Assembly: GCA_017433615.1 (NCBI GenBank)
Contig: JAFRGW010000080.1
Coordinates: forward strand, 1-39,806
DNA: 39,806 nt
DNA from: Eubacterium sp.
GTDB lineage: Bacteria; Bacillota; Clostridia; Lachnospirales; Lachnospiraceae
Direction: 5' to 3'
The notes below the pieces were generated by a model. It worked only from the letters and a program-made list of their open reading frames with translations. It was not told where the DNA came from and did not search any database. Of this stretch, positions 12,140 to 36,555 are shown piece after piece. The translations under genes and the position numbers were made by a program. The number at the start of each line of letters is the position of its first letter. Positions within the stretch are counted from its first letter, which is position 1.

Positions 12140-12173
12140 AACTGGTTTGTACGGGCAGCAGAAAGGGAAAAAA

Positions 12174-13328: not shown

Positions 13329-13349
13329 GATTGCGATTTTATAAATAAT

Positions 13350-13526
13350 GGGGGCTGTCGCGTTAAGCACCTTCATGCATAAATATACATCACCGGGACC
13401 GCTCCCGCTCCGGTCCTCGTGCAACGGTACTAAACTCGCACTGCTGTGCTCGTTAAGGAGCGGCACTGCGGATGTCCCTTTGATGTACATTATGCATTGG
13501 ATGCTTAGTGCGGCAGCCCCCTTTTT
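13350..13526. repeat. Large inverted-repeat element (copy C), possible terminator
   Basis: Arms 13350-13392 and 13481-13521 are imperfectly complementary along about 41 bases; the outer eight (GGGGGCTG/CAGCCCCC) are perfect. TTTTT (13522-13526) follows, so the RNA could act as a terminator after the ATPase gene. Read on the minus strand, the core holds AGTACCG(T)TGC and GAGCGGGAGCG, strings also found in copies B and A. The element ends just before the ribosome binding site of the next gene. Confidence 0.65.
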
Positions 13527-13536
13527 CAGGAGATGA

Positions 13537-16061: not shown

Positions 16062-16083
16062 ACAATGCACAGAGGGTTAAAAT

Positions 16084-17631
16084 ATGAGCGATAGAAGAAT
16101 TGAAAATCTGATTGATTATGGAATCAGGAAAAACCTGCTGGAAGAAGCAGACAGGATCTGGGCGTACAACCAGATTCTTATGATTCTGCATGCAGACAGT
16201 GATGAAGCATTGGCAGCGGCAGAAGAAGCAGATGGCAGCGGCAGTCTGGGTTCCGGGCAAAACGAACAGGATGCAGACGAGATCGCAGTGATTCTGGACC
16301 GGCTCTGTGCACTGGCACGCAAAACCGGAGCACTGACCGATGACGGTGTGGTCAGCCATGACCTGTTTGACACGAAGCTGATGGGCGTGCTGACGCCGCG
16401 TCCGTCACAGATCCGGTCGGAGTTTTCTCTCCGGTATGACATTTCTCCGGAGAATGCCACAAGCTGGTTTTATGATTTCTCAGGAAATACCAACTATATC
16501 CGGCGGGACCGGATCAGAAAAGATGTGAAATGGGTGACCAGTACAGAGTACGGCGATCTGGATATCACCATCAATCTGTCCAAGCCGGAAAAAGATCCCA
16601 AAGCGATCGCGGCCGCGAGGAATATGCCGCAGTCAGCGTATCCAAAGTGTCAGCTGTGTGCGGAAAATGAAGGATATGCCGGCAGGGTGAATCACCCGGC
16701 GAGGGAAAATCACAGGATTATTCCGGTTACCATTAATGGAAGTGACTGGTATTTTCAGTACTCGCCTTATGTCTATTATAATGAGCACTGTATTGTATTT
16801 AACAGTCATCATGTGCCGATGCGGATTGATGCGGCAGCGTTCCGGAAACTGCTGGATTTTGTGAAGCAGTTCCCGCATTATTTTGTGGGATCCAATGCGG
16901 ATCTGCCGATTGTCGGCGGATCAATCCTTTCACATGATCATTTCCAGGGCGGGCATTATACATTTGCCATGGAAAAGGCATTTGTGGAGACACCGCTTGT
17001 CTGCAGCGGATACCCGGAGGTGGAGGCCGGCATCGTGAAGTGGCCGCTCTCCGTCATCCGGCTGCGGTCACTGGATGATACGGCACTGGTCAATCTGGCA
17101 GATGAAATTCTGACTTGCTGGCGCGGTTATTCCGATCCGGAAGCATTTATTTTTGCAGAGACAGGCGGCGTGCCGCACAATACGATTACGCCGATCGCAC
17201 GTCGAAGGGGCGCGGTGTATGAGCTGGATCTCGTGCTGCGCAACAATATCACGACAGAGGAACATCCGCTGGGCGTGTATCATCCGCATGCAGAGCTGCA
17301 TCACATCAAGAAAGAAAACATCGGCCTGATTGAGGTGATGGGTCTTGCTGTTCTGCCGGCGCGTCTGAAGGAAGAAATGAGTCTTCTGGCGGATGCACTG
17401 GTTTCCGGTGCGAATATCCGCAGCGATGCGCGGATTGCCGCACATGCAGACTGGGCGGAGGCATTGCAGAAGCAGTACCGGTTTGACAAAGAAAATGCAG
17501 ATATGATATTAAGAGATGAGATCGGCAAAGTGTTTATGCAGGTTTTGGAGGATGCCGGCGTGTACAAGCGCACCCCTGAGGGAAAAGCGGCGTTCCTGCG
17601 GTTCTGCAGGCAGGCGGGATTGGTTCTGTGA
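16084..17631 (+). CDS. galT: UDP-glucose--hexose-1-phosphate uridylyltransferase, class II GalT
   Basis: Leloir pathway enzyme that swaps UMP between UDP-glucose and galactose-1-phosphate. It belongs to the Bacillota GalT class, about 500 residues. Signatures include HDLFDTKLMG, TPRPSQI, YPKCQLCAENEGY, EHCIVFNSHH and the active-site SHDHFQGGHY, with the nucleophilic His in HDH(F)QGGH. Residues about 40-65 form an Ala/Glu/Gly/Ser-rich stretch (GSGSLGSGQNEQ) that looks inserted relative to the usual helix. galK lies 103 bp downstream; that gap contains only a 6-bp hairpin (17660-17687). It lies downstream of the alpha-galactosidase, which supplies the galactose. Confidence 0.95.
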   Translation: MSDRRIENLIDYGIRKNLLEEADRIWAYNQILMILHADSDEALAAAEEADGSGSLGSGQNEQDADEIAVILDRLCALARKTGALTDDGVVSHDLFDTKLMGVLTPRPSQIRSEFSLRYDISPENATSWFYDFSGNTNYIRRDRIRKDVKWVTSTEYGDLDITINLSKPEKDPKAIAAARNMPQSAYPKCQLCAENEGYAGRVNHPARENHRIIPVTINGSDWYFQYSPYVYYNEHCIVFNSHHVPMRIDAAAFRKLLDFVKQFPHYFVGSNADLPIVGGSILSHDHFQGGHYTFAMEKAFVETPLVCSGYPEVEAGIVKWPLSVIRLRSLDDTALVNLADEILTCWRGYSDPEAFIFAETGGVPHNTITPIARRRGAVYELDLVLRNNITTEEHPLGVYHPHAELHHIKKENIGLIEVMGLAVLPARLKEEMSLLADALVSGANIRSDARIAAHADWAEALQKQYRFDKENADMILRDEIGKVFMQVLEDAGVYKRTPEGKAAFLRFCRQAGLVL

Positions 17632-17734
17632 AAAACTGCTTTACTGCTTTTAAAATGTGACGGGCGAACAGACATCGCACAGCCCGTGCGGGGTCGGAGA
17701 TCGATATTTATATTTAAAATAACTGGAGGGGACT

Positions 17735-19114
17735 ATGGGAACAGAGAAGCTGCGGAAGCAGTTGGAGAGCGGCGCACTGGACGGGCGTCTGCAGGAGATT
17801 TATCTGACGGAGGACCCGGCCGAGCAGCGTGCGCGCGCCGGAAAAGTGCTGGATATGTATGACGCGCGGTTTGCGGCAGAAGCGGGGGCAGATATTGAAA
17901 TGTCCGGATCGGTCGGTGTGCCGTCCGGTTCTGCCGGCACGGAGGCCGGCGGGAAAGCTGCGCAGGACAATGCACCGGCCTGCGGACCGGTTGAATTGTT
18001 CAGCGCGCCGGGCCGCACGGAACTCGGCGGCAACCACACGGATCACCAGCGCGGCTGTGTCCTTGCGGCCAGTGTCAGTCTGGATCTGATGGCAGCAGCG
18101 GCACCGAATGGAACCAGTATGGTTGTACTGGAATCAGAAGGTTATGAAGTGCTGCGTGTTGATGTCTCTGATGAAACAGTACACCCGGAGGAAGTCAATC
18201 AGACAGCATCGCTGATTCGCGGCATCGCGGCGGCAATCCGGCAGCGCGGCTATCAGCCGGAAGGCTTCAATGCGTGTGTCACCTCAGATGTGCCGGGCGG
18301 CTCAGGCCTGTCATCATCGGCGGCATTTGAGACGCTGATTGGGGTGATCTTCAACCACATGTTCTGCGGCGATGCGCTGGATGCAGTTGAAATTGCAAAG
18401 ATCGGACAGTATGCAGAAAATGTGTATTTCGGAAAACCCTGCGGGCTTATGGATCAGATGGCATGTTCGGTCGGCGGCGCCATTGCCATTGATTTTGAAA
18501 AGCAGGAGGAGCCGCAGATCACAAAAATTCCGTTTTCCTTTGCGGACAGCGGCTATCAGCTCTGTATCATTAACTCCGGTGCGGACCATGCGGATCTGAC
18601 CGAAGATTATGCTGCAGTTCCGGCTGAGATGAAGTCCGTTGCGCAGTATTTCGGGAAAGAGGTACTACGCGAAGTGCCGGAAGAACAGTTCCGCGGCAGT
18701 ATTGCATCGCTCCGGAAGGCATGCGGTGACCGCGCAGTCCTGCGCGCGGCACATTTCTACAGAGAGAACGACCGGGTGGAAGCTGAGAGTGCGGCACTTC
18801 GGGCGGGTGATTTTCAGGCGTATCTGCGTACTGCAAAAGAATCAGGATATTCTTCCTTCATGTATTTGCAGAATGTCTACAGCAGCCGCTTCCCGGAGCA
18901 GCAGGCCGTGGCAGTCGCACTGATGACGGCGGAACACATCCTCGGCGGGGAAGGTGCCTGCCGCGTACATGGCGGCGGTTTCGCCGGAACGATCCAGGCA
19001 TTTGTTCCGGCAGATCAGGTGGAAGCATTCCGGCACGAAATGGAACGTGTGCTCGGCAAGGGGTGTTGCAACGTGCTGCAGATCCGGCCGTACGGCGGGA
19101 TTGTGATTGCTTAG
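17735..19114 (+). CDS. galK: Galactokinase
   Basis: Phosphorylates galactose at C1 with ATP, the entry step of the Leloir pathway. GHMP-kinase motifs are present: the galactokinase signature GRTELGGNHTDHQRG (residues about 93-107), ATP loop PGGSGLSSSAAFE (about 188-200) and C-terminal GEGACRVHGGGFAGTIQAF. The length of 459 residues exceeds the usual 390-430. The excess is largely a Gly/Ser/Ala-rich segment at about 50-84, just before the conserved LFSAPGR start of the catalytic fold. ATG 17735 has CTGGAGGGG upstream. It ends the alpha-galactoside cluster; galE comes only after an intervening ATPase gene. Confidence 0.95.
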   Translation: MGTEKLRKQLESGALDGRLQEIYLTEDPAEQRARAGKVLDMYDARFAAEAGADIEMSGSVGVPSGSAGTEAGGKAAQDNAPACGPVELFSAPGRTELGGNHTDHQRGCVLAASVSLDLMAAAAPNGTSMVVLESEGYEVLRVDVSDETVHPEEVNQTASLIRGIAAAIRQRGYQPEGFNACVTSDVPGGSGLSSSAAFETLIGVIFNHMFCGDALDAVEIAKIGQYAENVYFGKPCGLMDQMACSVGGAIAIDFEKQEEPQITKIPFSFADSGYQLCIINSGADHADLTEDYAAVPAEMKSVAQYFGKEVLREVPEEQFRGSIASLRKACGDRAVLRAAHFYRENDRVEAESAALRAGDFQAYLRTAKESGYSSFMYLQNVYSSRFPEQQAVAVALMTAEHILGGEGACRVHGGGFAGTIQAFVPADQVEAFRHEMERVLGKGCCNVLQIRPYGGIVIA

Positions 19115-19168
19115 GTAAAGAGATTAAGATTAATGGCAGGCAGATTGAAATGTCCGACAGACGGGATT

Positions 19169-19231
19169 TCTAAAGATTCTAAAAAGTTCTAAGAAATCTA
19201 AAATGTTCTAAAATTGCAAAAAAGTTCTAAA
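19169..19231 (+). repeat. Helically phased TCTAAA repeats upstream of ATPase gene
   Basis: TCTAAA occurs at 19169, 19178, 19197, 19207 and 19226, with TCTAAG at 19188. Spacings are 9, 10, 9, 10 and 19 bp, so every copy falls on nearly the same face of the helix. The last copies overlap a candidate promoter. This looks like an operator array for a protein that binds cooperatively. Confidence 0.6.
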
Positions 19232-19242
19232 AGTGATATCCT
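19214..19242 (+). promoter_or_regulatory. Candidate promoter of the ATPase gene
   Basis: TTGCAA (19214-19219) and TATCCT (19237-19242) are 17 bp apart, each matching the sigma-A consensus at four of six positions. The phased TCTAAA array runs through the -35 and spacer, so a repressor bound there would block it. Confidence 0.45.
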
Positions 19243-19281
19243 GATAACAGGAAAGATATGGATATAAAGGAGGAATGTCAT

Positions 19282-20370
19282 ATGAATCCTTTCACACCAA
19301 CTTTTGGAATGGTGCCGCCATATCTGGCAGGCAGACAATCATTGATAACATCAATGAGGCGGGCATTTCAGAATGGACCCGGAGATCCGAATTTGTCAAG
19401 CGTTCTGGTCGGTCCGCGCGGATCCGGAAAAACAGCATTGCTGTCCTGCATTGGGGATGAGGCAATGAAGGAGGGCTGGCTTGTAGCGGATACAGTTGCG
19501 GCAGATAACATGCTTGATGATATTTTGCAGAGAACGCAGGTAGTAGGCAGAGAATTGCTGAAAAATAATGAAAAGAAGCAGCTGACAGGTATCGGAGTCG
19601 GACAGATGGTCAGCCTGACATGGGAATCTGACCAGGCGGAAACGAAGAACTGGCGCACCAAAATGAGTGCGCTGCTGAATGAATTAAATAAAACGCAGAC
19701 AGGATTGCTGATTACAGTTGATGAAGTACGTGCGGATATTCCGGAAATGATACAGCTGGCTTCTATGTATCAGCTGTTTATCAGGGAGCATGCAAAAATA
19801 GCACTGGTAATGGCTGGCCTCCCTGTGAATATCAACCAGCTGATCAGTCATAAGGAAGTATCATTTCTCAGAAGAGCAAGACAGCATTATGTTGGAAGAA
19901 TTGCGGACAGAGATATTCGAAGTGCCTTCAGAAAAACCATTGAATCGGCAGGTAAGAGAATCGAAGATGATGCATTAAGTCTGGCCGTTGAGGCGGCCGG
20001 AGGATTTGCCTATATGATGCAGCTTGTAGGGTATGCTGTCTGGGAAGAAAGCGGAGAGAAAGAACTGATTGATACCCCCGCAGCAAAGCAGGGGATTGAA
20101 GAGGCAAAAGAAGATTTTAAACGCGGCGTTCTGGACAGTACATGGCGAGAATTGTCTAAAGGCGACAAAAAAATTCTGGAAGCAATGTTGAAGGATCAGG
20201 AGTACAGTACTGTTACAGACATTGCAAAGCGGATTGGAAAAACGCCCGGTTATGTATCTACTTACAAAACAAGACTGCTTATGGCCGGCGTGATCGAGGA
20301 ACTGGAGGGTGCTGTATTTACAATTGCAATTCCTTCTTTCAGAGAATACATCAAAAACCAGAGTCTCTGA
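19282..20370 (+). CDS. AAA-type ATPase with C-terminal winged helix
   Basis: Predicted cytoplasmic STAND/AAA_16-like ATP-binding protein of 362 residues. Walker A is GPRGSGKT (about 41-48), and Walker B-like GLLITVDEV lies near residue 145. A helical lid with GGFAYMMQLVGYAVW follows. Residues about 285-355 form a winged helix (STVTDIAKRIGKTPGYVSTYKTRLLMAGVIEE), suggesting DNA binding or a degenerate form of it. Proteins like this are common in Clostridia with no fixed role. ATG 19282 follows AAAGGAGG with good spacing; an in-frame ATG at 19258 lies before that ribosome binding site. It separates galK from galE and has its own promoter and AT-rich repeat array, so it may be a late insertion. 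Self-regulation through the array is inference. Confidence 0.8.
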   Translation: MNPFTPTFGMVPPYLAGRQSLITSMRRAFQNGPGDPNLSSVLVGPRGSGKTALLSCIGDEAMKEGWLVADTVAADNMLDDILQRTQVVGRELLKNNEKKQLTGIGVGQMVSLTWESDQAETKNWRTKMSALLNELNKTQTGLLITVDEVRADIPEMIQLASMYQLFIREHAKIALVMAGLPVNINQLISHKEVSFLRRARQHYVGRIADRDIRSAFRKTIESAGKRIEDDALSLAVEAAGGFAYMMQLVGYAVWEESGEKELIDTPAAKQGIEEAKEDFKRGVLDSTWRELSKGDKKILEAMLKDQEYSTVTDIAKRIGKTPGYVSTYKTRLLMAGVIEELEGAVFTIAIPSFREYIKNQSL

Positions 20371-24039: not shown

Positions 24040-24630
24040 GTGAAAGAGAAGAATAGAGAGCTGCGGATCCTGATTGCGGAGGATGAGCCGCTTGTATTGA
24101 TGGGATTTGAGGAGATGATCTCCGATGCGGGCTATATTGTTGCCGATGCAGTGTCGGACGGCGAGACAGCCGTATCACGCGCACTGGAACTGCAGCCGGA
24201 TCTGATTGTCATGGACATCAATATGCCGGGTGTTGACGGACTGACAGCAGCGGAACGGATTAAAGAGAAGGCCGACATCCCGATCATTATCGTCACCGGC
24301 TACCGGAGTGAAAAATTCATTGACCGCGCTTCTGGTGCGTATGTCAGTGCATATCTGCAGAAACCTGTGGACGAGTATGAGCTGAAATCCGCAATCAAGC
24401 TGGCACTGGCACAGATGGATAAATTCCGGGCTGTTTCACAGGAGCGCGATGAAGCTGAGCGGAAACTCTCAGAGCGGAAAGTGATCGAGCGTGCCAAGGG
24501 ATTTATGATGGATACCTTCGGACTCAGTGAGGCGCAGGCGATGAAGGCCCTGCAGAAGAAAAGTGCCAACGAAAATAAAAAGCTCTATGAAGTTGCAAAA
24601 GATATTATAGAGGCGGGCAGTAAAATATAA
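24040..24630 (+). CDS. ANTAR-domain response regulator (transcription antiterminator)
   Basis: Predicted cytoplasmic two-component regulator of 196 residues that acts on RNA. The receiver domain spans about 8-125, with acidic pocket AEDE, phospho-acceptor Asp59 in LIVMDINMPG and Lys in LQKPVD. A coiled linker (residues about 125-150) leads to the ANTAR domain (about 140-192; VIERAKGFMMDTFGLSEAQAMKALQKKS). Phosphorylated EutV/NasR relatives dimerise and bind tandem hairpins that stop a terminator from forming. The start is GTG with CAGGGGG upstream. Its stop overlaps the kinase start (TAATG). A TATAAA at 23978 and a TGTGAAA dyad (23999-24021) precede it. Likely target: the leader at 26534-26607 (inference). 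Confidence 0.92.
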   Translation: MKEKNRELRILIAEDEPLVLMGFEEMISDAGYIVADAVSDGETAVSRALELQPDLIVMDINMPGVDGLTAAERIKEKADIPIIIVTGYRSEKFIDRASGAYVSAYLQKPVDEYELKSAIKLALAQMDKFRAVSQERDEAERKLSERKVIERAKGFMMDTFGLSEAQAMKALQKKSANENKKLYEVAKDIIEAGSKI

Positions 24631-26465
24631 TGAGTGAACAGATACCGGTTCTCAGATTCAAAGATGTCAGCATTCAGACACACAACAATGTGCAGCTGAC
24701 GAATATCAATTTTCAGGTAAATGCAGGTGAGACGCATGCAGTGATCGCGATGTCCGGGCTGGAGATTCAGGCGCTGATCAGCGCAATCTACAAAGATGTG
24801 CGTATTTTCAGGGGTGAGCACATGCTGGCCGGGAAGACGTATGATAAAAAGCAGGTAAGCGAACTGTATGACAGAGTGGATCTGATTGATTCCACCACAG
24901 GCATTTATCCGTCGCTGAGTGTCTTTGACAATGTGAATGTTAAGAAGAAAACAGGCGGCTTTTTTATCCGGGAAGAGATCAGAAGGAAGATCCAGGAGCT
25001 TTTCGACGAATTCTCAATTCCGATCGATGTGAACCAGCGGATGCAGACACTTACCAGAGAGGAACAGGGTCTGGTCCAGCTGATGGGCGCATATGTCAGC
25101 GGAAAGCCGCTGGTGGTGATCAATGAACTGGAATCGAGATATGGGCGGCAGTATCAGGATATCCGCTGGAATATTATCAAAAAAATCAAGGAGCAGGGGC
25201 GGGGCATTATTTACCTGACCTCCATGCTGGAATCTGCGTTGATGATTTCGGACCGCATCTCTGTGCTGAGCGAAGGCAGGATCCGCATGACGAAGGAGAC
25301 AAAGCAGGTAATTGAGGATCCGCGCGAGATTATTTATCTGCTGGCGGGGTGGTCTCCCATCTCTGAGACAGACCAGCAGGATGATATGAGTATCCTCTCG
25401 ACACTGATTACTGCACGTGATCTGCTGACCAGCACATCAGAGCTGAAAAATGAACTGGCTTACCTGGCAGATGATATCGCGAAAGTATTTCAGGCCCGCT
25501 GCTGCAGCATTTATCTGATCGACAGCGAGGCAGGCAGATGGATCAGCACCAGCAGTAATGAAGTGTACCGCGCTTCTGAGGAACTGGTCCTGAAACTGAT
25601 ACAACAGCAGGATCGGCAGGACAGCTGGGTCGAGATCACCAAAGATACAGAGGTGTACCAGCAGTTTTTTGCAGGCAGCCAGATCCAGTCCATTATCTGC
25701 GTCCCCGTTAATTCGCGAAATAATTTTCAGGGGATCATACAGCTGATGTTTGAGAAGCCATATCAGCCGGATGACCGCGACCGGTTCTATATGGATTCGT
25801 TCTGCAAGGAAATCTCGATTGCGATCGAGACCTCCCGCCTGATCGGCCGCTCCATGCTTCTGCAGGAGAGCCACCACAGAATCAAGAACAATCTGCAGAT
25901 GATCAATTCCCTGATTTATCTGCAGAAATCAGCAGTCCGGAAGCATAAGACCGACCCGGACGAGGCCTTTGATGCGATTACCAGAATGGTATCGAGCATT
26001 GCGGCTGTGCATGATATCCTGGCAAAGGATACCAGCAATAACAGCATCATCAATCTGAAGCATATTATTGCTGAAATTGTCAGCTTCTACAGAATGTCGG
26101 ATCTCACAGTCAGTGTGGAGACCCAGAATATCAGCATTCCGTACAACAAAGCTGTAAACATCGCGCTGATTGTGAATGAGATTATCAACAACAGTGTCAA
26201 GCATGCATTCGACCGGACGGATGAAAAGCATGTCAGAATTATCTGCGAGAGTGACGGCCTGCAGATTACGATCCGGATTCAGGACAACGGATCCGGTTTC
26301 CGGATGGACCAGGCCGCAGTTGAAAAAAAGAGCATCGGGATGGGAATTGTCAGAAATCTGGTTTCTTCGATGAAGGGTGATATGCAGATGCGGAACGACG
26401 GCGGGGCCTGCGTGGACATCACCATACCGGTCTCACATGTCTATGACGGAACAAACAGTGCCTGA
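24630..26465 (+). CDS. Histidine kinase with dead RbsA-like ABC ATPase domain, GAF and HisKA_2
   Basis: A 611-residue soluble sensor kinase. Residues about 5-240 align end to end with the first ATPase half of RbsA/MglA (VLRFKDVSIQ, PSLSVFDNV, GIIYLTSMLESALMISDRISVLSEGRI). All catalytic motifs are lost: Walker A is AMSGLEIQA, the signature is TREEQGL, Walker B is LVVINELES, and the switch His is replaced by Ser198. Residues about 255-400 look like a GAF sensor. The kinase core is HisKA_2 (ESHHRIKNNLQ, His415/416) plus HATPase (NEIINNSVKHAF, DNGSGF, GMGIVRNLV). It is coupled by overlap to the ANTAR gene and followed by an RbsA-type importer. It may dock on the importer's permeases and report transport; that is inference. 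Confidence 0.88.
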   Translation: MSEQIPVLRFKDVSIQTHNNVQLTNINFQVNAGETHAVIAMSGLEIQALISAIYKDVRIFRGEHMLAGKTYDKKQVSELYDRVDLIDSTTGIYPSLSVFDNVNVKKKTGGFFIREEIRRKIQELFDEFSIPIDVNQRMQTLTREEQGLVQLMGAYVSGKPLVVINELESRYGRQYQDIRWNIIKKIKEQGRGIIYLTSMLESALMISDRISVLSEGRIRMTKETKQVIEDPREIIYLLAGWSPISETDQQDDMSILSTLITARDLLTSTSELKNELAYLADDIAKVFQARCCSIYLIDSEAGRWISTSSNEVYRASEELVLKLIQQQDRQDSWVEITKDTEVYQQFFAGSQIQSIICVPVNSRNNFQGIIQLMFEKPYQPDDRDRFYMDSFCKEISIAIETSRLIGRSMLLQESHHRIKNNLQMINSLIYLQKSAVRKHKTDPDEAFDAITRMVSSIAAVHDILAKDTSNNSIINLKHIIAEIVSFYRMSDLTVSVETQNISIPYNKAVNIALIVNEIINNSVKHAFDRTDEKHVRIICESDGLQITIRIQDNGSGFRMDQAAVEKKSIGMGIVRNLVSSMKGDMQMRNDGGACVDITIPVSHVYDGTNSA

Positions 26466-26486
26466 ACAAAAGAGTGATTTTTGTTA

Positions 26487-26515
26487 TTGACAAGTTACCG
26501 GACAGAAATTATAAT
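26487..26515 (+). promoter_or_regulatory. Consensus sigma-A promoter of the RbsA-type ABC operon
   Basis: TTGACA (26487-26492), 17 bp, TATAAT (26510-26515): a perfect match to the housekeeping consensus, the best promoter in the window. Transcription should start near 26522, giving a leader of about 165 nt before the binding-protein gene. So strong a promoter suggests that control comes later, at the leader terminator. Confidence 0.85.
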
Positions 26516-26533
26516 GACTTCAGTTGAATAAAG

Positions 26534-26584
26534 TGTTCTCATGGCGTGGAACAATTCTGATTGAAGAGAGTTACGAGTGCTTTC
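26534..26584 (+). promoter_or_regulatory. Candidate ANTAR-responsive antiterminator hairpins
   Basis: Hairpin 1: TGTTCT (26534-26539) with GGAACA (26548-26553), a C-U mismatch and hexaloop ATGGCG (26541-26546), which fits the A1/G4 rule for ANTAR loops. Hairpin 2: GAGAG (26566-26570) with CTTTC (26580-26584); a T-G pair would leave loop ACGAGT, which has A1 but not G4. Hairpin 2 uses bases of the terminator's left arm, so the two structures exclude each other, as in EutV targets. The second loop is imperfect, so this is a proposal. Confidence 0.5.
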
Positions 26585-26607
26585 GCTTATTGCGGGAGCA
26601 CTTTTTT
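26576..26607 (+). terminator. Leader terminator upstream of the binding-protein gene
   Basis: An 11-bp stem (26576-26586 with 26592-26602) and a TTATT loop run into TTTTTTCTTTTT. It lies between the consensus promoter and the first structural gene, so it must be bypassed for the operon to be expressed: an attenuator. Confidence 0.85.
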
Positions 26608-26685
26608 CTTTTTCAGAAAATGTCCCTTCGATCAGAAACAACCTGTGAGACACAAACTGTGGGGAAAAGGAAAGGAGTAACAAAA

Positions 26686-27819
26686 ATGAGATTAACGAAA
26701 AAGATTCTGGCACTTGCCATGACAGGCGTGATGACGCTTGGCCTTGCAGCCTGCGGCGGCGGAAGCAGTTCTTCCTCTTCAGCAGCACCTGAGGCAGCGG
26801 CTTCATCCGCAGCAGAGAGCACAGCAGCCAGCAGTGCTGCAGCTGCATCCTCCGCGGCAGCAGAGACAACCGGCAGCGGCGACAAGATCGTGATCGGCGC
26901 TTCCTACAACAGCCTGATGAACGATGTCTTTACCGTCACACAGACACTGATGGAACTGTGGGCAGAGCAGCCGCTTGAGGCTGACGATCCGCAGGTTGAT
27001 CTGACCATCGTTGTTGCTGACGGCGACACAACCAAGCAGATTTCCGACGTAAATGACCTGATCAACAAGGGCTGCGATGTCATCTGCATCGACCCGGTAG
27101 ATTCCACAGCGGTTGAGCCGGCAATCCAGGCCTGCAAAGACAAAGGAATTCCGGTTATTACATTTAACAGACCGGTTGCAGAATCAGTTAAGACACGCCC
27201 GGACGTTGAAGTAGATATCGCTGCATACGATCAGGGATATGACACCGCAAAGACAACCTTCGAGAAAATGAAAAATGACGGCGTAGAGGAGATCAATGTG
27301 GTCCTCTGCAACGGCGAGACCCGTGACGACAACTCCATCCGCCGTGCAAAGGGCGTGCAGGCTGCAGCAGAAGAATATGGCGCAACAGTCGTTGCTGAGC
27401 TTCCGTGTGACTGGGATCCGACCAAGGTTACAGAGCTGCTTCCGCCGGCTCTGAAGGGCAACGAGAATGTCAACTGTGTATATGTTGCAACAGACGGAAT
27501 GCTCTCCGGTGTACAGAGCTGCCTTGAAGATATCGGCAAGTGGGCACCGTACGGCGATGAGAATCATATGTACGTTGCATGCTGTGACGTATTTGAAGAA
27601 GGTTACAACTATGTTGCTGACGGCTATGTGGATTCCGATTCTCTGATGGATGTCTACGGCATGATCAAGGGCGTTTTCCAGAGTGCTTTCGCAATGAACA
27701 ACGGCGAAACAGTAGAACCTCTCATTGAGATCAAGGGTGCTGTTTATACCTCTGACAACTATGACAGTGCAGAGATGACAAGTGATGAGCTTCTGTGGTG
27801 GAAGTGGAAAGATAAATAA
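26686..27819 (+). CDS. Sugar-binding lipoprotein of RbsB/YtfQ-type ABC importer
   Basis: Predicted lipid-anchored extracellular receptor of 377 residues. Signal and lipobox are TLGLAAC at about residues 17-23, followed by a Ser/Ala linker to about 62 and then a periplasmic-binding type 4 fold of the ribose/galactose class (KIVIGASYNSLMNDVF, QISDVNDLINKGCDVICIDP, IPVITFNRP). ATG 26686 follows AAAGGAGTAACAAA; an in-frame upstream start at 26524 would run through the attenuator and is rejected. The permease, ATPase and second permease follow. A monosaccharide ligand is likely, but which one is not visible. Confidence 0.9.
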   Translation: MRLTKKILALAMTGVMTLGLAACGGGSSSSSSAAPEAAASSAAESTAASSAAAASSAAAETTGSGDKIVIGASYNSLMNDVFTVTQTLMELWAEQPLEADDPQVDLTIVVADGDTTKQISDVNDLINKGCDVICIDPVDSTAVEPAIQACKDKGIPVITFNRPVAESVKTRPDVEVDIAAYDQGYDTAKTTFEKMKNDGVEEINVVLCNGETRDDNSIRRAKGVQAAAEEYGATVVAELPCDWDPTKVTELLPPALKGNENVNCVYVATDGMLSGVQSCLEDIGKWAPYGDENHMYVACCDVFEEGYNYVADGYVDSDSLMDVYGMIKGVFQSAFAMNNGETVEPLIEIKGAVYTSDNYDSAEMTSDELLWWKWKDK

Positions 27820-27857
27820 TCTGCTTTGAAAATTCGTGCTGCGAACGGATTAAAATA

Positions 27858-27891
27858 CGGGGCTGGCGCATTGACAGATGCGTCAGCCCCG
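27858..27891 (+). promoter_or_regulatory. Strong intercistronic hairpin after binding-protein gene
   Basis: A 14-bp stem (27858-27871 with 27878-27891, one G-U) has loop TGACAG. No T-tract follows, so complete termination is unlikely. It probably raises binding-protein output relative to the permeases, like the hairpin at 7156-7207 in the other importer operon. Confidence 0.65.
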
Positions 27892-27946
27892 TCTGGCGGG
27901 TTCTGCTAAAACGATTGTGAGTTAACAGCAGAAGAAGGAGAGATAT

Positions 27947-28924
27947 ATGGGTACACAAAGTAAAGCACTTCCGGCCGGATTTCTGGCATCCATCCGGGAG
28001 GATAATAAAAAGCGGGTAAATGCTCTGGTGGGCGTTGTCGCGGTTATTATTCTGATCATTCTTGCCCTGACGGTACCGAACTTTTTCAGTATGCAGAATA
28101 TCGTAAATGTTCTGGAACAGGTGAGTTCGGTCGGCTTCTATGCCCTGGGCCTTACAATTGTTCTGGTTTGCGGCGGAATCGATCTTTCTGTTCCGGGCGT
28201 TATCATGGCAGCTGCATGTCTCGGCGGCAGTTACATGGTAAACGGCGGCAGCTGGTTTGTTGCAGTCCTCATGATGCTCGGGATGGGACTTCTGTTTGGG
28301 TTTATCAATGGAATTGCAGTAGCTAAGGGAAAGATGATCCCGTTTATCGTAACCCTGTCAACGCTGGTACTTTCACAGGGTATCGCTGAGTATCTATCGG
28401 CAGCACAGACAATTTACGGACTGCCGGATATTTTCCTTGCATTTAACACCAAGATCGGAATTGTACCGGTTGGCGTTATCGTCTTCATCATTGTTGCATT
28501 GATTCTCATGGTACTTCTGACGAGAACCAGACTCGGAAGAACGTTCTTTATGGTTGGTGAAAATATCGAGACAGCCAGAGTCTCCGGTATTAAAACGGAC
28601 AGAGTTCTGTTTCTGTCTTATCTGATTTCCGGACTGCTTGCCGGGATCGGCGCCATCTTCCTGACTGCACGTCTTGGTTCGGCAACAGCGACGATGGTTG
28701 GCGACACCGTAACAAACGACACAATTGCCTCCTGCATTATCGGCGGCGCAAGCCTCCGCGGCGGACAGGGCAATATTATCGGCTCAGTTTTCGGACTGAT
28801 TTTCATTACCATTGTTGGAAACTGTTTCAATCTGCTGGGTATCAGCTATTACGTCGGTATGGTTATCAAAGGACTGATTGTTGCGCTTGTCATTTATATC
28901 GATGTACTGCGGGCAAGGGGGTAA
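27947..28924 (+). CDS. RbsC/YtfT-type sugar ABC permease
   Basis: Predicted membrane subunit of 325 residues, mostly hydrophobic, of the CUT2 sugar importer. RbsC-family signatures are GLTIVLVCGGIDLSVPGVIMAAA (shared by the family with small changes), GFINGIAVAKGKMIPFIVTL and TIASCIIGGASLRGGQGNIIGSVFG. AGAAGGAGA precedes the ATG. It is one of two different permeases flanking the ATPase gene, so the membrane channel is probably a heterodimer, as in the E. coli galactofuranose importer YtfQRT-YjfF. Confidence 0.9.
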   Translation: MGTQSKALPAGFLASIREDNKKRVNALVGVVAVIILIILALTVPNFFSMQNIVNVLEQVSSVGFYALGLTIVLVCGGIDLSVPGVIMAAACLGGSYMVNGGSWFVAVLMMLGMGLLFGFINGIAVAKGKMIPFIVTLSTLVLSQGIAEYLSAAQTIYGLPDIFLAFNTKIGIVPVGVIVFIIVALILMVLLTRTRLGRTFFMVGENIETARVSGIKTDRVLFLSYLISGLLAGIGAIFLTARLGSATATMVGDTVTNDTIASCIIGGASLRGGQGNIIGSVFGLIFITIVGNCFNLLGISYYVGMVIKGLIVALVIYIDVLRARG

Positions 28925-28930
28925 TGAAAA

Positions 28931-30424
28931 ATGCTGACTATGACGAATATTACGAAACAATTTACAGGTGTAAAGGCCCTTGATAATGTCTCAATCCATG
29001 CAGAAGAAGGGCGTGTTCTGGGACTCATCGGCATTAACGGTGCCGGAAAAAGTACACTGATGAATGTACTTGGCGGCGTTTTTCAGCCGGATGAAGGAAA
29101 AATTGAATTAAACGGGAAAGAACTGAAGTTCCATTCACCGATTGATGCCTATAATGAGGGCATTGCGTTTATTCACCAGGAACCACAGTTTTTCCTTTCT
29201 CTGACGGTTGCAGAAAACATTTTCATATCCGACCTCTATATGAAAAACAAAGTTGTTACGGATAAGAAGAAGATGATGGAGCAGGCAGAAAAATATCTTT
29301 CGATTATCGCGTCAAACATCAAACCAAACCAGCTGCTTGAAGACGTGGCAATCGGACAGCGGCAGGTCATTGAGATTGTCCGCGCGCTGACTTCCGGCGC
29401 ACAGGTAATTATATTTGATGAACCGACATCTTCTCTGGGTATTCATGAAAAAGAGAATCTGTTTAAGACGATCGAAAAGCTGAAATCCGAGGGCAAGATT
29501 ATCATCTACATCTCGCATTTTCTGGATGAGATCATGGAAGTATGCGATGACTATGTCGTTCTCCGTGACGGAAAGCTGGTGAACCAGGGGCTGATCAGTG
29601 AAACGGACAAGAGTGGACTTTCTGACATGATCATCGGCCAGAAACTTGAGAAGCTGAAAAAAGAGGAAGTTGACACAAGCGACCGGGAAATTGTCCTGAA
29701 AGTTGAAGACATTCATCATGGCAATCTGCTTCACGGTGTCGGATTCGAGCTGCGGAAAGGCGAAGTACTCGGCATCTGGGGACTGATGGGAGCTGGCAGA
29801 ACTGAGATGATCCGTGCAATGCTCGGACTCGACCGTGTGCCGGGCGGAAAAGCTTATATCAATGAAAACGGCGAGATGCGTCCGATTAAGAAGCATGAGC
29901 TTCTGGAGCGTGTCGGCTATGTCACAGAAGGCAGACATTTTGACGGTCTGTTCCTTTCCAAGCCTGTATGGATGAATGTTACATCTGCAAACCTGGATGC
30001 TTATTCCTCAAAGGGCATTCACATGCTGGATATGAAGAAAGAGCATGAAGATACCGAAAAGTACATTGATATGCTGAATATCAAAGTTCCGAATGCAGAC
30101 GTTAAGGTTTCAAACCTGTCGGGCGGCAATCAGCAGAAGGTTATCTTTGCAAAATGGATCGACAAGGGTGCCAATATCTTCATTCTGGATGAGCCGACAC
30201 GCGGTGTTGATGTCGGTGCGAAGCTGGGAATTCACAAGATTATCCGCGAACTTGCCAGCCAGGGCAGCAGCGTCATTCTGATCACATCCGAGGCGGATGA
30301 GATGGTAGATCTCGCAGACAGAGTGCTGATCCTGCGGGGCGGTGAAATAATATCCGAGCAGACAGGTGCTGATATCAATCAGACAAACTTGATGCGCATC
30401 GCATTGGAAGGAGTGAGTGCCTGA
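28931..30424 (+). CDS. RbsA/MglA-type sugar ABC ATPase (two ATPase halves)
   Basis: Predicted energising subunit of 497 residues with two ATPase domains. The first half is complete: Walker A GINGAGKST (about 33-41), FIHQEPQFFLSLTVAENIF, IGQRQVIEI and VIIFDEPTSSL with switch His in YISHFLDE. The second half has the usual degenerate Walker A GLMGAGRTE but a good LSGGNQQK and FILDEPTRGVDVGAK. This is normal for the family. It starts seven bases after the permease stop and overlaps the next permease by one base. It is the intact relative of the dead ATPase domain in the kinase at 24630, and the two might compete for the permeases (inference). Confidence 0.93.
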   Translation: MLTMTNITKQFTGVKALDNVSIHAEEGRVLGLIGINGAGKSTLMNVLGGVFQPDEGKIELNGKELKFHSPIDAYNEGIAFIHQEPQFFLSLTVAENIFISDLYMKNKVVTDKKKMMEQAEKYLSIIASNIKPNQLLEDVAIGQRQVIEIVRALTSGAQVIIFDEPTSSLGIHEKENLFKTIEKLKSEGKIIIYISHFLDEIMEVCDDYVVLRDGKLVNQGLISETDKSGLSDMIIGQKLEKLKKEEVDTSDREIVLKVEDIHHGNLLHGVGFELRKGEVLGIWGLMGAGRTEMIRAMLGLDRVPGGKAYINENGEMRPIKKHELLERVGYVTEGRHFDGLFLSKPVWMNVTSANLDAYSSKGIHMLDMKKEHEDTEKYIDMLNIKVPNADVKVSNLSGGNQQKVIFAKWIDKGANIFILDEPTRGVDVGAKLGIHKIIRELASQGSSVILITSEADEMVDLADRVLILRGGEIISEQTGADINQTNLMRIALEGVSA

Positions 30425-31374
30425 TGACGAAAAAAATTAATACAAAAGATTTTCTGCTGTCCAATGGTTTTTACCTTCTGTGCATTGCTGTCATTGTGAT
30501 ATTCAGTATCCTGAACCGGTCGTTTCTGACAGTACAGAACTTTTTCGCAATCCTGCTGGCATCTGCTTTTCTGTGTGCGACAACGGCAGGTGTCACACCG
30601 GTTATCATTTCCGGCAATATGGATCTGTCAGTCGGTTCAACTGCGCTGCTCTGTGTCGGCGTCATGTATCAGTCATTTCACAGCGGACTGCCGGACGGCG
30701 TAACGCTGCTGCTGGGGATTTTGTCCGGATGTATCGTGGGTCTGATCAACGGCATTCTGGTGGCAAAACTGAAATTCAATGCGATGGTCCTGACACTGGG
30801 ACTGCAAATCGGATACAGGGGTCTCGGTCTGATGTTGATTGGCGGCACACAGGTCAAACTTCCGGAAGCATTCAGTAATTTCGGTAAGAAAACAATTTTC
30901 GGCGGCCTGAATGTCACCGTTGTGATCTGTCTGCTGGTTATGCTCGTGCTGCATCTGATCCTGAAACGGACCCGCTTCGGCACATACTGCTATGCAATCG
31001 GCTGTAATGAGATGGCTTCCGAGCGTGTCGGTATTCCGATTGATAAAGTAAAGATTGCAACATTCATTATCTCCGGTGCATGCGCAGCACTTGCGGGATT
31101 TGTAGTAATTTCCAGATTGGGCATCGCGCATTCCTACATCGGAAAAGAGATGGAATTTGACGCGATTGAGGCAGCTGTTATCGGCGGCATCAGCCTGAAC
31201 GGCGGACGCGGTAATCTTCTGCCGGGTGCCCTGCTTGGCGTGTTCCTGATCTATGTCATCAACAACGGACTTTCCATCATGGGTGCTTCCGAGTATGTGT
31301 ATCCGTTTGCACAGGGAATTATCGTTTTCGTTGCGATGTATTTGGATGCGTTGAAGAACTTTAAGAACAAATAA
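30424..31374 (+). CDS. RbsC/YjfF-type sugar ABC permease
   Basis: Second membrane subunit of the CUT2 importer, 316 residues. It shows GVTPVIISGNMDLSVGSTALLC, GLINGILVAKLKFNAMVLTLGL and EAAVIGGISLNGGRGNLLPGALLG, typical of RbsC-like permeases, and closes with a short basic tail. Its ATG overlaps the ATPase stop (TGATG), so translation is coupled. It is clearly different in sequence from the permease at 27947. A strong terminator closes the operon at 31388. Confidence 0.9.
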   Translation: MTKKINTKDFLLSNGFYLLCIAVIVIFSILNRSFLTVQNFFAILLASAFLCATTAGVTPVIISGNMDLSVGSTALLCVGVMYQSFHSGLPDGVTLLLGILSGCIVGLINGILVAKLKFNAMVLTLGLQIGYRGLGLMLIGGTQVKLPEAFSNFGKKTIFGGLNVTVVICLLVMLVLHLILKRTRFGTYCYAIGCNEMASERVGIPIDKVKIATFIISGACAALAGFVVISRLGIAHSYIGKEMEFDAIEAAVIGGISLNGGRGNLLPGALLGVFLIYVINNGLSIMGASEYVYPFAQGIIVFVAMYLDALKNFKNK

Positions 31375-33214: not shown

Positions 33215-33685
33215 TCAGTAGCTCAGCCGGTCCGGTGTGAGGTTGTAGAGCACATCCAGATAGCGGCGCGCGTAATATTTTGCCATAAAAATATTCATGT
33301 CCAGGTAGTTGCCGCAGTCACGCGGGGATGCGCCGGGAATATCGCCCTCAAAATCACGGATATACTCGAACGTCCGGGTAATCAGGGATACGATATCTTC
33401 TGAAGCGAGATCGCCGCGGAGCAGCAGATAGAAGCCTGTGCGGCAGCCCATCGGCCCGAAGTAAATAATGCGGTCTTTCCAGATCTGATCGTTGCGCAGA
33501 AAAGTCGCGCCGACATGCTCGATGGCGTGTACTTCTGCTGTGTTCATAACCGGCTCTTCATTCGGGGAAGTGATGCGCAGGTCGAAGGTCGTTACGGTGT
33601 CGCCGCCGACTGCATCCTTGCGGGAGACATAGATGCCCGGCTGAAGTTTAAAATGATCGATCGTAAAGCTTGCAATTTTTTCCAT
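33215..33685 (-). CDS. luxS: S-ribosylhomocysteine lyase LuxS
   Basis: Splits S-ribosylhomocysteine into homocysteine and DPD, the precursor of autoinducer-2; it also recycles the by-product of methylation. It is a 156-residue metalloenzyme. The metal site is HAIEH (His53, His57) plus Cys in PRDCGNY near residue 124. SRKDAVGGDTVTTFDLR and GPMGCRTGFYL, with its Cys, are classic LuxS strings. GAGGAG precedes the start on the minus strand. It is transcribed alone, convergent to the VOC gene; the partner nucleosidase gene is not in the window. Confidence 0.97.
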   Translation of the reverse strand: MEKIASFTIDHFKLQPGIYVSRKDAVGGDTVTTFDLRITSPNEEPVMNTAEVHAIEHVGATFLRNDQIWKDRIIYFGPMGCRTGFYLLLRGDLASEDIVSLITRTFEYIRDFEGDIPGASPRDCGNYLDMNIFMAKYYARRYLDVLYNLTPDRLSY

Positions 33686-33886: not shown

Positions 33887-33912
33887 AAAACTACGTCTAT
33901 GGACGTAGTTTT
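33887..33912. promoter_or_regulatory. Perfect 11-bp palindrome at the transcription start, candidate operator
   Basis: AAAACTACGTC (33887-33897), spacer TATG, and GACGTAGTTTT (33902-33912) are exact complements, placed directly after the -10. It could be read as a hairpin terminator, but its place at the start point of a toxin-antitoxin-like pair fits an operator for the XRE protein better. Confidence 0.6.
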
Positions 33913-33967
33913 ATTTGAAAATGTCATGCCGAAGCTGCAGAGAATGGATAAAAGGGAGTTTTGGTTT

Positions 33968-34627
33968 ATGCGATATATCTATCATGGGTCGAAAGAAATT
34001 GTTCCGGTCCCGGTGTTTGGAAAGGGGCGTCCGGATAATGATTACGGAACAGGATTTTACTGTACGGAAGATATAGAATTGGCGAAGGAGTGGGCAGCAG
34101 TAGATGAAAAGGGCGGGTTCCTGAACTGTTATGAAGTAGACGAAACAGATATGCTGCGGTTTGATCTGATCCTTTCTGAGCAGAAGGATTCATCGGCACA
34201 GATTCTGCAATGGCTGGCGGTACTGCTGGCAAATCGGAATATACGTCTGGGCAGCCCGGTTGAGAAGCGCGGGCGAGAATACATTCTTGCACATTTTCTG
34301 CCGGATCTTTCTGATGCGGATTTTCTTGTCGGTTACCGGGCGGACGATTCTTATTTTTCTTTCGCACGGGCATTCCTGAGTAATACCATCACGCTGGGAC
34401 AGCTTTCACATGCAATGTTTTTTGGAGAACTCGGTCTTCAATATGTCATTAAGAGCCGGCGGATGTTTACAAGAATTCATTTTCTGGAAGCAGTTCCTGT
34501 AGATGGGGTACTATATTATCCAAAACGAAGAAAACGGGATCTTGCTGCAAGAGAGAAATACAGAAAAATGCTGGAGCAGGAGTCAGAGGACGGTTTCTAT
34601 CTGAATCAGATTATGCGGGAGAAGTAA
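33968..34627 (+). CDS. DUF3990 protein, ADP-ribosyltransferase-like putative toxin
   Basis: A 219-residue cytoplasmic protein. The N-terminus has the DUF3990 pattern YIYHGS (His6), then GRPDNDYGTGFYCTEDIELAKEWA (shared positions: Gly-Phe-Tyr31, Ala-Trp), resembling the H-Y part of ADP-ribosyltransferase folds. The middle is Leu-rich. The C-terminal 40 residues are strongly basic (YPKRRKRDLAAREKYRK). No enzyme activity is proven for this family as far as I know. ATG 33968 follows AAGGGAG at good spacing. Earlier in-frame ATGs at 33899 and 33944 lie in the palindrome or lack a site. The XRE gene starts two bases after its stop, suggesting a toxin-antitoxin pair (inference). Confidence 0.75.
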   Translation: MRYIYHGSKEIVPVPVFGKGRPDNDYGTGFYCTEDIELAKEWAAVDEKGGFLNCYEVDETDMLRFDLILSEQKDSSAQILQWLAVLLANRNIRLGSPVEKRGREYILAHFLPDLSDADFLVGYRADDSYFSFARAFLSNTITLGQLSHAMFFGELGLQYVIKSRRMFTRIHFLEAVPVDGVLYYPKRRKRDLAAREKYRKMLEQESEDGFYLNQIMREK

Positions 34628-34628
34628 A

Positions 34629-35282
34629 ATGCAGGGATCATATGCGGAAGTATATCTGGATGATGCGATGCGGAATATGGGTGAAATGACAGAATATGCC
34701 GCGGAAGTCTGTCATATCAGTCTTGACCTGCTGTTTCACATGTTTATTGTCAGTGGATATGCGAGGCGATGGGAACAGGGAGACCCCGCTGTTTTGTGCG
34801 GGCTGTCCGGGACGGAGCTCTGCGGGCGGATTCTGGAGAAATGTGGAATGGATGGCGGGAGCAGACAACCGGCGCTGATACGCTACGATACAGAGCGGAA
34901 TTACTGGTGCGGATGGTTTGTGGCATTCTATCAGTGGAAAAAAAGGATTTCCTTTGGACAGTTGTTTCCGTCAGTCAGGGAACAGGATTTGTTCCGTTTG
35001 TATCCTGCACTGCATACAGCATCGGAAGAAAAGGGAGCAGAGGTGCTGGATCAGTTACAGCGGGAGCGAAGTCAAATCACAAGACTGCAGACATATCGGA
35101 AGAAGCTTGGTCTCTCACAGCAGGAACTGGCGGAACGTTCGGGCGTGAATTTAAGAACACTGCAGGAATATGAAGTGCGGAGAAAAGACATCAACCGTGC
35201 GGCAGCTGAGAAGCTGATTGCACTGGCAAATGTATTGCTCTGCAGACCGGAATCCCTGCTCGAAATCAGTATTCCGGAATAA
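34629..35282 (+). CDS. XRE helix-turn-helix protein, putative antitoxin/autorepressor
   Basis: A 217-residue protein. The N-terminal 150 residues form a helical domain I do not recognise by name (AEVYLDDAMRNMGEMTEYAAEV; the RYDTERNYWCGWFVAFYQW region is aromatic). It is followed by a clear Cro/C1-type HTH at about 152-207 (LQTYRKKLGLSQQELAERSGVNLRTLQEYEVRRKDINRAAAEKL, given by family spacing). It is separated from the DUF3990 gene by one base, so both come from the promoter at 33857. The N-terminal part likely binds the partner while the HTH binds the palindrome at 33887 (inference). No terminator is visible before the galM promoter. Confidence 0.8.
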   Translation: MQGSYAEVYLDDAMRNMGEMTEYAAEVCHISLDLLFHMFIVSGYARRWEQGDPAVLCGLSGTELCGRILEKCGMDGGSRQPALIRYDTERNYWCGWFVAFYQWKKRISFGQLFPSVREQDLFRLYPALHTASEEKGAEVLDQLQRERSQITRLQTYRKKLGLSQQELAERSGVNLRTLQEYEVRRKDINRAAAEKLIALANVLLCRPESLLEISIPE

Positions 35283-35484: not shown

Positions 35485-36555
35485 ATGATGGGAATGTCAA
35501 GCAGATCATTTGGAACAACAAAAGACGGTACAGAAGTAACAGAGTATACCCTTACCAATGCAAATGGAACTTCATGCTCCTTTATTGATATGGGGGCGGC
35601 CTGGGTGACTATGAATGTGAAGGACAAAAACGGTGTATTCGCAGATGTGGTCATGGGCTATGACAATCCGGATGCATATTATATGAATCCCACCAGCTGC
35701 GGCGAATGTGTCGGACGCAATGCGAACCGCATCGCGCACGCAAAGTTCACGCTGGAGGGGAAGGAATACCAGCTCGGCAAGAACAACAATGACAACAATC
35801 TGCATTCCGGCCCGGACAAGTGGTTCACACATATGTTCAAAGGAGAACTGCAGGAAACAGCGGAAGGCAGCAGTGTCCGTTTTACGAAATTTTCCAAAGA
35901 CGGCGAGCAGGGCTTCCCGGGAAATCTGGAATTTGCGGTTACCTATACTTTGACGGAAGATGATGCGCTGAAGATCGAATACGAGGCATGCGCAGACCAG
36001 ACGACAATTATCAATCCGACCAATCATGCGTATTTCAATCTGGCCGGCGACGGCAGCGGTGATGTTTTCGGACATGTGCTGTGCATGAAGGCGGACCGTT
36101 TCACACCGACAGATGAATATTCCATTCCTTATGGAGAACTATGGGATGTTGCGGGCACGCCGTTTGATTTCAGAGAGCCGAAGACAATCGGGCGGGATAT
36201 CAAAGCGGACTATGAGCAGCTGCAGTTTGTCGGCGGTTATGACCACAACATGGTGCTGAACGATCAGGATGGCACCGTCCGCCTGGCAGCAGTATTTACA
36301 GATCCGGAGAGCGGCCGGACCATGCAGGTATTCACAGATCTTCCGGGCATGCAGCTCTACACCGGCAATAATATCAAGAATACGTGTGTCGGAAAAAATG
36401 GCGCGGATTATCAGCCGTGGATGGGCGTCTGCTTTGAGACGCAGTACTATCCGGATGCGATGAACCATCAGGATACTGACTGGCCGCAGCCAATCTTTAA
36501 GGCCGGCGAGAAATATCACTCCGTGACGATCTACAAGTTTGGAGTTGTGGATTAA
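35485..36555 (+). CDS. galM: Aldose 1-epimerase (galactose mutarotase)
   Basis: Interconverts alpha and beta forms of aldohexoses and supplies alpha-galactose to galactokinase. It is a 356-residue cytoplasmic beta-sandwich. Typical strings are CGECVGRNANRIAHAKFTL, NNLHSGPDKWF, INPTNHAYFNLAGDG (catalytic His), GGYDHNMVL and GVCFETQYYPDAMNH (catalytic Glu). GGAGG lies seven bases before ATG 35485; ATG 35488 is an equally good alternative. It is expressed from its own promoter, away from the gal cluster at 16084-21459, and lies next to the ROK regulator and xylB. Confidence 0.95.
   Translation: MMGMSSRSFGTTKDGTEVTEYTLTNANGTSCSFIDMGAAWVTMNVKDKNGVFADVVMGYDNPDAYYMNPTSCGECVGRNANRIAHAKFTLEGKEYQLGKNNNDNNLHSGPDKWFTHMFKGELQETAEGSSVRFTKFSKDGEQGFPGNLEFAVTYTLTEDDALKIEYEACADQTTIINPTNHAYFNLAGDGSGDVFGHVLCMKADRFTPTDEYSIPYGELWDVAGTPFDFREPKTIGRDIKADYEQLQFVGGYDHNMVLNDQDGTVRLAAVFTDPESGRTMQVFTDLPGMQLYTGNNIKNTCVGKNGADYQPWMGVCFETQYYPDAMNHQDTDWPQPIFKAGEKYHSVTIYKFGVVD

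Follow-up and report, generated by a model that had tools for sequence, protein, structure and literature searches.

Why should a soluble sensor kinase begin with what looks like a dead transporter ATPase? The question is raised by a locus of Eubacterium sp. on contig JAFRGW010000080.1 (assembly GCA_017433615.1), of which we analysed a stretch of 39,806 nucleotides, here called the window. All features of the locus lie on the + strand. The kinase, 611 residues long (24630..26465), is encoded between a response regulator that combines a receiver with an ANTAR RNA-binding domain (REC-ANTAR; 24040..24630; Pfam Response_reg 1e-26, ANTAR 1.2e-17) and a sugar importer operon whose genes extend to 31374. 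The open reading frames of regulator and kinase share one base, at 24630. An original prediction made from the letters alone had placed kinase and importer correctly and had proposed that the kinase docks on the importer permeases and senses transport or permease occupancy. We propose a sugar-importer-coupled two-component system in which the kinase is linked to the importer through its pseudo-ATPase, with the regulator acting as antiterminator of the importer operon, and we give this reading a probability of roughly 0.7. An importer-facing input through the pseudo-ATPase is probable, and the output half, in which the phosphorylated regulator lets transcription through the terminator of the importer leader, is very probable. 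Support in the sequence comes from the domain make-up of the kinase, its genomic linkage, the leader, the covariation and terminator overlap found there, and the co-divergence of the pseudo-ATPase with the importer.

The first 240 or so residues of the kinase had been predicted to correspond to a whole ATPase half of the RbsA/MglA type. Profile-profile alignment with hhalign of six kinase ABC domains against six RbsA N-halves gave an E value of 3.8e-55 over 240 columns, which bears this out; against six RbsA C-halves the E value was 8.8e-33. Single-sequence searches with the N-terminal part of the kinase reached 3e-18 to YtfR and 2e-10 to a solved ABC ATPase. The closest NCBIfam models were the N-halves of YtfR, MglA, XylG and AraG (E down to 3e-18), with scores that fall far under the whole-protein cut-offs of these models. 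Pfam ABC_tran was matched at residues 23-165 with 27.3 bits, above the cut-off of 25, and was also over the cut-off in six of the seven further members scanned, G214 being under it. By these comparisons residues 1-245 (24630..25364) are homologous to a whole RbsA-type N-terminal ATPase half, far beyond chance. With the double ATPases RbsA, MglA and XylG the kinase thus has the complete N-half in common. It differs from them in having one half, which is joined to GAF and kinase domains and does not carry the full set of catalytic residues in 23 of the 24 aligned copies; Walker A, the Walker B Asp-Glu pair and the switch His occur together in G1087 only.

The remainder of the kinase consists of a GAF domain (residues 277-400, 25458..25829; Pfam GAF_3/GAF) followed by HisKA_2 dimerisation/phosphorylation and HATPase catalytic domains (25866..26435; HisKA_2 3.1e-14, HATPase_c_2 2e-11). 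In an alignment of eight members the residues H416, R417, I418, K419, N420, N421, L422 and Q423 are invariant and form the phospho-His motif of HisKA_2, so that the protein has both the motif and the HATPase domain of a HisKA_2 sensor kinase. Hydropathy analysis gave no membrane segment, the highest 19-residue mean being 1.37 as compared to 3.35 in permease 1. Pfam GAF was matched at E ≤ 0.01 in seven of the eight members scanned, in some of them under the GAF cut-offs, and not in G296. The GAF match in most members favours an alternative in which the GAF domain senses a cytosolic sugar or sugar phosphate while the dead ABC domain only aids dimerisation or holds the kinase near the membrane. 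We consider this alternative unlikely in view of the linkage and co-divergence data given below.

The same domain order was found in other genomes, as the original prediction had suggested searching for. The fused-kinase family comprises 25 copies in 23 genomes. Scans found fused kinases in 3 of 397 genomes of the family, 4 of 392 of the order (3 new), 2 of 391 of the class (1 new) and 4 of 249 of the phylum (3 new), as well as in 2 of 17 genomes of the class of G1087 (1 new) and in 13 of 59 of the class of G1283 (12 new). Neither the family of G561 (3 of 22) nor the class of G1166 (1 of 2) added new members. These counts include the own genome where it belonged to the set, and they are lower bounds, since three candidates per genome were scored in the family, order and class scans and five in the phylum scan and members may be missed. 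A contig-level search for relatives returned only four, aligned on the kinase part alone (residues 407-601). Sequence identity to the window kinase was 26-33% for seven aligned relatives. The copy of G1283 is broken by a stop and that of G1348c is degraded; G1348 carries three fused copies, each near its own CUT2 operon.

The window locus has the complete set of CUT2 (RbsABC) genes in one operon, with an RbsB-like binding protein, an RbsA double ATPase and RbsC permeases. The original prediction had staked itself on such importers accompanying the relatives of the kinase, and they do. CUT2 genes were present in the fetched stretch of 24 of the 25 fused copies, and at the 25th (G1343) the contig border comes directly after the regulator. 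In that genome another contig end carries a regulator tail (read from the DNA by eye), the leader element and a CUT2 operon. On the short contigs of G1166 (3.9 kb) and G1349 (10.6 kb) permeases only were seen, and the CUT2 genes of copy G1348c are found about 5-8 kb upstream of it. RbsA was found at 22 of 25 loci, the short contigs of G1166 and G1349 and the kinase contig of G1343 being those that do not hold it. A regulator similar to that of the window adjoins 24 of the 25 copies including the window, and none was seen at the degraded G1348c; beside the further copies (23 of 24) it was assigned by similarity to the window regulator, for which the Pfam check was made. At one locus (L154:8296-10255) two different CUT2 permeases stand in tandem with kinase, regulator and a glycyl-radical-enzyme-like gene, and the contig stops before any RbsA. 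Catabolic neighbours, identified from open reading frames by eye, vary by locus and include pentose kinases, epimerases, glycyl-radical enzymes, dehydrogenases and others. The imported sugars therefore probably differ among the loci.

As controls we used all 16 kinase-only matches from the family, order and phylum scans (7, 5 and 4, respectively), each of which has a similar regulator nearby. None of the 16 had a CUT2 permease, binding protein or double RbsA in its flanks, of which the shorter side measured about 8.7 kb or more for 12 kinases and less for four. Other ABC ATPases were found near two of them. The pairing of ABC-less relatives with similar regulators favours the GAF domain as the sensor, but the lack of linkage of these same relatives to CUT2 importers speaks against that explanation.

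Co-divergence of the kinase domains with the importer proteins was analysed for 16 loci by tests of the Mantel type, which inflate significance among related sequences. With GAF and kinase distances removed, the partial correlation of the ABC domain was 0.37 with the permease (p 5e-4), 0.43 with RbsA (p 5e-4) and 0.35 with the binding protein (p 1e-3). Corresponding values for the GAF domain were 0.16, 0.13 and 0.15 (p 0.06, 0.10 and 0.08), and the partial correlation of the kinase domain was negative with permease and binding protein. The result for the ABC domain survived omission of four fast rows (p 0.007 and 0.003) and of three near kin (p 0.003 and 0.002). On this evidence the pseudo-ATPase is co-diverging with the importer beyond what the GAF and kinase domains explain. 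The better fit of the ABC domain than of the GAF domain to the importer again disfavours a GAF-only input, as does the consideration that a module serving dimerisation alone need not track permease and binding protein.

The correlations also bear on a variant of our proposal, in which the pseudo-ATPase touches RbsA without taking its seat, the kinase thereby reading the working importer and sensing transport turnover. Turnover sensing has reportedly been proposed for PstSCAB-PhoU-PhoR. The ABC domain correlates with RbsA at least as strongly as with the permease, and RbsA is present at most loci. However, RbsA already contains both ATPase halves, leaving no free seat, and the known Pst route runs through PhoU, a counterpart of which was not looked for at these loci. 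We rate this variant as rather unlikely; it overlaps with the proposal of importer coupling, and our confidence figures for the various readings do not sum to one.

The original prediction had described the ATPase motifs as replaced throughout. The window domain has lost its P-loop, Q-loop Gln, Walker B Asp and switch His, with AMSGLEIQA at the P-loop, VINE at Walker B (NE for DE) and TS at the switch His. The catalytic Glu on the other hand is retained, as in 23 of 24 aligned copies (G1283 excluded). The altered signature is uninformative because the N-halves of neighbouring RbsA proteins (17 shown) also lack LSGGQ. The stretch following the Q-loop, PSLSVFDNV (24909..24935), had been singled out as kept; its Asn101 occurs in every one of the 24 kinase copies. 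Elsewhere the motifs form a gradient, with the switch His retained in one copy (G1087), the Walker B Asp in three (G1087, G1330, G296), the Q-loop Gln in five and the P-loop Lys in 13; the 11 copies that lost this Lys are those of the window, G296, G214, G857, G1166, G561, G461, G517, G1386, G1387 and G1388. The copy of G1087 (L122:8976-10907), in which P-loop, Q-loop Gln, Walker B Asp-Glu and switch His are all present, is a candidate bifunctional ATPase-kinase.

The distribution of the P-loop Lys, together with the complete motif set of G1087, is what an ATP/ADP sensor reporting the energy state of the cell could account for. The 11 copies without the Lys nevertheless have the importer linkage and, except for G1166, the leader, and for an energy sensor a cognate importer would be superfluous. 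We consider such a role highly improbable.

The idea that the active site had been selectively erased was rejected, as catalytic columns were lost no more than other RbsA-invariant columns. Around the lost switch His, family-specific residues are well kept (Thr 90%, Trp 80%), and the His position itself is most often Lys (50%). Since the loss is not selective and new residues are conserved, the ABC domain looks remodelled rather than merely decaying. Its dN/dS was about 0.08-0.20 in five pairs, three of which share genomes and two of which have dS above 1; a sixth pair is nearly identical. By this measure the domain is under purifying selection. In a phylogenetic tree that took in 22 of the 24 kinase copies, a branch with SH-aLRT 98 set the RbsA N-halves apart, and a single kinase clade was not rejected (p-AU 0.78). 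We accordingly discarded a scenario in which each kinase copied its own neighbouring RbsA. Long branches lead to the kinases of the window, G296 and G214, and at the base G1087 and G1330 remained unplaced.

The original prediction dealt with the input domain and did not notice the output, for which the importer operon has a leader of the ANTAR antitermination type. Between the kinase and binding protein genes lie a promoter, TTGACA-N17-TATAAT (26487..26515), with exact consensus boxes and a 17-base spacer, a short leader and an intrinsic terminator (26573..26607). The leader contains two ANTAR-type hairpins, P1 with loop AUGGCG (26535..26552) and P2 with loop ACGAGU (26567..26583); P2 overlaps the terminator and is mutually exclusive with it. 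We gave up an initial assignment of P2 in the window once the P2 shared with relatives became apparent. At its gathering threshold Rfam gave no match in the window, and we do not credit two leader matches below that threshold. The own genome encodes two ANTAR proteins, of which the window regulator is one.

This double hairpin is common to the leaders of relatives. Two-sided changes occur at 9 of 12 pairs on 10 leaders and at 11 of 13 pairs on 21 leaders, an alignment that excludes the copies in L069, L150 and L155, the P2-only L144 and two weak second matches. On the 21 leaders 87.7% of cells pair versus 38-46% with partners slid, a comparison biased in favour of the structure as it was picked by eye from the same sequences. 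The loops follow a consensus A-N-G-R, with A at position 1 in 21/21 (P1) and 20/21 (P2) and G at position 3 in 21/21. The terminator overlap was analysed in 23 of the 27 matches of the covariation model R2 described below, four being excluded. The double hairpin with P2 over the terminator was seen in all 23, two of them weak, and the terminator arm begins inside P2 in every case. The score of this arm was at least 18 in 21 leaders, as compared to 1 of 1000 random positions; in the other two it was 12, a value reached by 57 of 1000 random positions.

A first model, R1, was built from 10 leaders including that of the window. On 15 unseen loci it gave 10 matches at E ≤ 0.5 in eight loci, all 10 in the gap between the regulator and the downstream operon. 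The single R1 match in the own genome at E ≤ 5 is the window leader, itself part of the model. In G561 a further R1 copy (L067:8430-8475) precedes an epimerase-like gene upstream of the kinase, outside the importer operon, and this genome has three leader matches. A weak match (E 0.75) was seen in G1292 (L123:7948-7991) behind an ANTAR-type regulator, where an ABC-less kinase is flanked by two regulators. The second model, R2, which matches the window at 26532-26584, was scanned over 78 of the 103 genomes first listed, with stricter filters. Among 56 non-members it gave three weak matches and none at E ≤ 1e-3; the three, in G1364, G480 and G525 (E 0.008-0.016), were taken as chance because no CUT2, regulator or kinase query match lies nearby. 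We regard this lack of matches at E ≤ 1e-3 among non-members, the locations of the matches and the G1343 leader, which stands outside both models, as the telling part of the R2 evidence. The kinase and regulator domains are of the EutVW type, so that one could think of an ordinary EutVW-like pair with an accidental neighbourhood and an accidental ABC domain. The linkage at 24 of 25 loci contradicts this, as do a leader element present in member genomes and not in near non-members and the purifying selection on the ABC domain, and the likelihood of such a coincidence appears close to negligible.

An ABC transporter informs a histidine kinase in PstSCAB-PhoU-PhoR and BceAB-BceS, which in this respect resemble the system of the window. 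Kinases of the PhoR and BceS type differ from the soluble window kinase in being membrane proteins that use PhoU or the transporter's own domains, and to our knowledge none of them carries an ATPase copy. CbrA, UhpBC and S-component-type receptors reuse transporter folds in signalling, but what they reuse is the membrane part, whereas the window system reuses the soluble ATPase subunit. There are known two-component systems that take signals from ABC transporters, and known ANTAR systems, but we know of no kinase with a dead transporter ATPase as input domain. The open-access PMC literature yielded no description of one either, which is not proof of novelty.

EutW and EutV, the ethanolamine kinase and ANTAR antiterminator, share with the system described here the combination of a kinase with a REC-ANTAR regulator. 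The input differs, being an RbsA-like pseudo-ATPase in the window. The leader has the architecture reported for EutV-type ANTAR targets, with two small hairpins, A at loop position 1 and the second hairpin over an intrinsic terminator (PMC3369931, PMC8934654). The A-N-G-R loops differ from the strict A1/G4 pattern, and a pyrimidine is unpaired below the closing pair. The targets differ as well. According to PMC3369931 ANTAR targets are mostly nitrogen genes, and the word 'sugar' occurs 0 times in its main text (supplementary tables aside), whereas the targets in the fused-kinase family are sugar importer operons.

HisKA_2 kinases are dimers and a CUT2 importer has two permease subunits. A kinase dimer would bring two pseudo-ATPases to two permease subunits, and an exchange with RbsA is therefore the simplest geometry. 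The dead RbsA N-half copy would act as the input domain of the soluble kinase, and the dimer may present its two pseudo-ATPases to the cytoplasmic side of the permease dimer, replacing or exchanging with RbsA. Binding protein and permease would then serve as the receptor. Arrival of a sugar-loaded binding protein at the permease would alter kinase activity, and the REC-ANTAR regulator would become phosphorylated. The active regulator would bind both hairpins of the nascent importer leader and stop P2 from joining the terminator, allowing transcription into the importer genes. Physical docking and its stoichiometry, the direction of the signal, phosphotransfer and RNA binding are what we infer here from the sequence data. 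The exchange geometry itself is tentative. Its fuller form, in which an ABC importer permease accepts RbsA when it is to transport and, when it is to signal, a kinase dimer that brings two dead ATPase halves, the swap making the importer a transmembrane receptor, and in which G1087 and G1330 keep an early state with a working or nearly working ATPase, is likewise a possibility to which we give somewhat less than even odds. Nothing was found in favour of the pseudo-ATPase pairing with an intact ATPase half.

Besides the inflated significance of the Mantel-type tests, several results weigh against importer coupling through a dead ATPase. Without the fast rows (12-row set) the GAF domain also reaches p 0.04-0.05, tracking the permease weakly (p 0.04). 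Permease and RbsA correlate with the ABC domain about equally, and the tests therefore do not tell permease from RbsA as partner; the predicted importer-coupled sensing gains from linkage and from a co-divergence carried more by the pseudo-ATPase than by the GAF or kinase domain, while the permease as the docking site gains nothing over RbsA. The P-loop Lys is retained in 13 of 24 copies and G1087 resembles a working ATPase half, so that nucleotide may play a role in some members of the family. Loss at the active site is not selective as a class, catalytic columns being retained at 0.40 versus 0.44 for other RbsA-invariant columns (p 0.41; 20 of the 24 copies, with the near-duplicates G517, G1388, G1357 and G1356 left out and G1283 not among the 24). 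The ABC domain evolves faster than the RbsA N-half, with dN higher in five of six pairs. In the leader analysis five of the 10 R1 matches on unseen loci were weak (E 0.08-0.39) and seven of the 15 loci had no match. R2 matched 20 of 22 member genomes, missing G1330 and G1166, a figure that is partly by construction since most member genomes donated leaders to the model. Loop base 4 is G in 16/21 (P1) and 10/21 (P2) and otherwise A, not always G as in the eut leaders.

The importer genes of the window follow the leader in the order binding protein (Peripla_BP_4, RbsB-like; 26686..27819, Pfam 5.6e-38), permease 1 (BPD_transp_2, RbsC-like; 27947..28924, Pfam 3.1e-34), the double ATPase RbsA (28931..30424) and permease 2 (BPD_transp_2, RbsC-like; 30424..31374, Pfam 1.3e-35). 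The RbsA protein has full-length NCBIfam AraG/RbsA matches, and the P-loop, Asp-Glu and His of its N-half are intact. Elsewhere the window contains a galactoside cluster (9806-20370 and 35485-36555) with a GH36 alpha-galactosidase, an aldose 1-epimerase and sugar ABC genes, in which galT, galK and galE were assigned by eye only. It further encodes LuxS (33215-33685, - strand) and a DUF3990 protein followed by a helix-turn-helix protein (33899-35282), possibly a two-gene module.

The way in which ABC importers inform kinases is a standing question in several systems. In the family described here a soluble kinase whose RNA output is defined appears to contact the transporter through a built-in version of that transporter's ATPase, and many natural variants run from an intact to a fully dead ATPase domain. 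The use of a transporter as receptor thereby becomes testable with few genes and a leader reporter, and ANTAR-type antitermination is extended to sugar import. The findings suggest that a cell may turn a transporter into a receptor by plugging a kinase into it.

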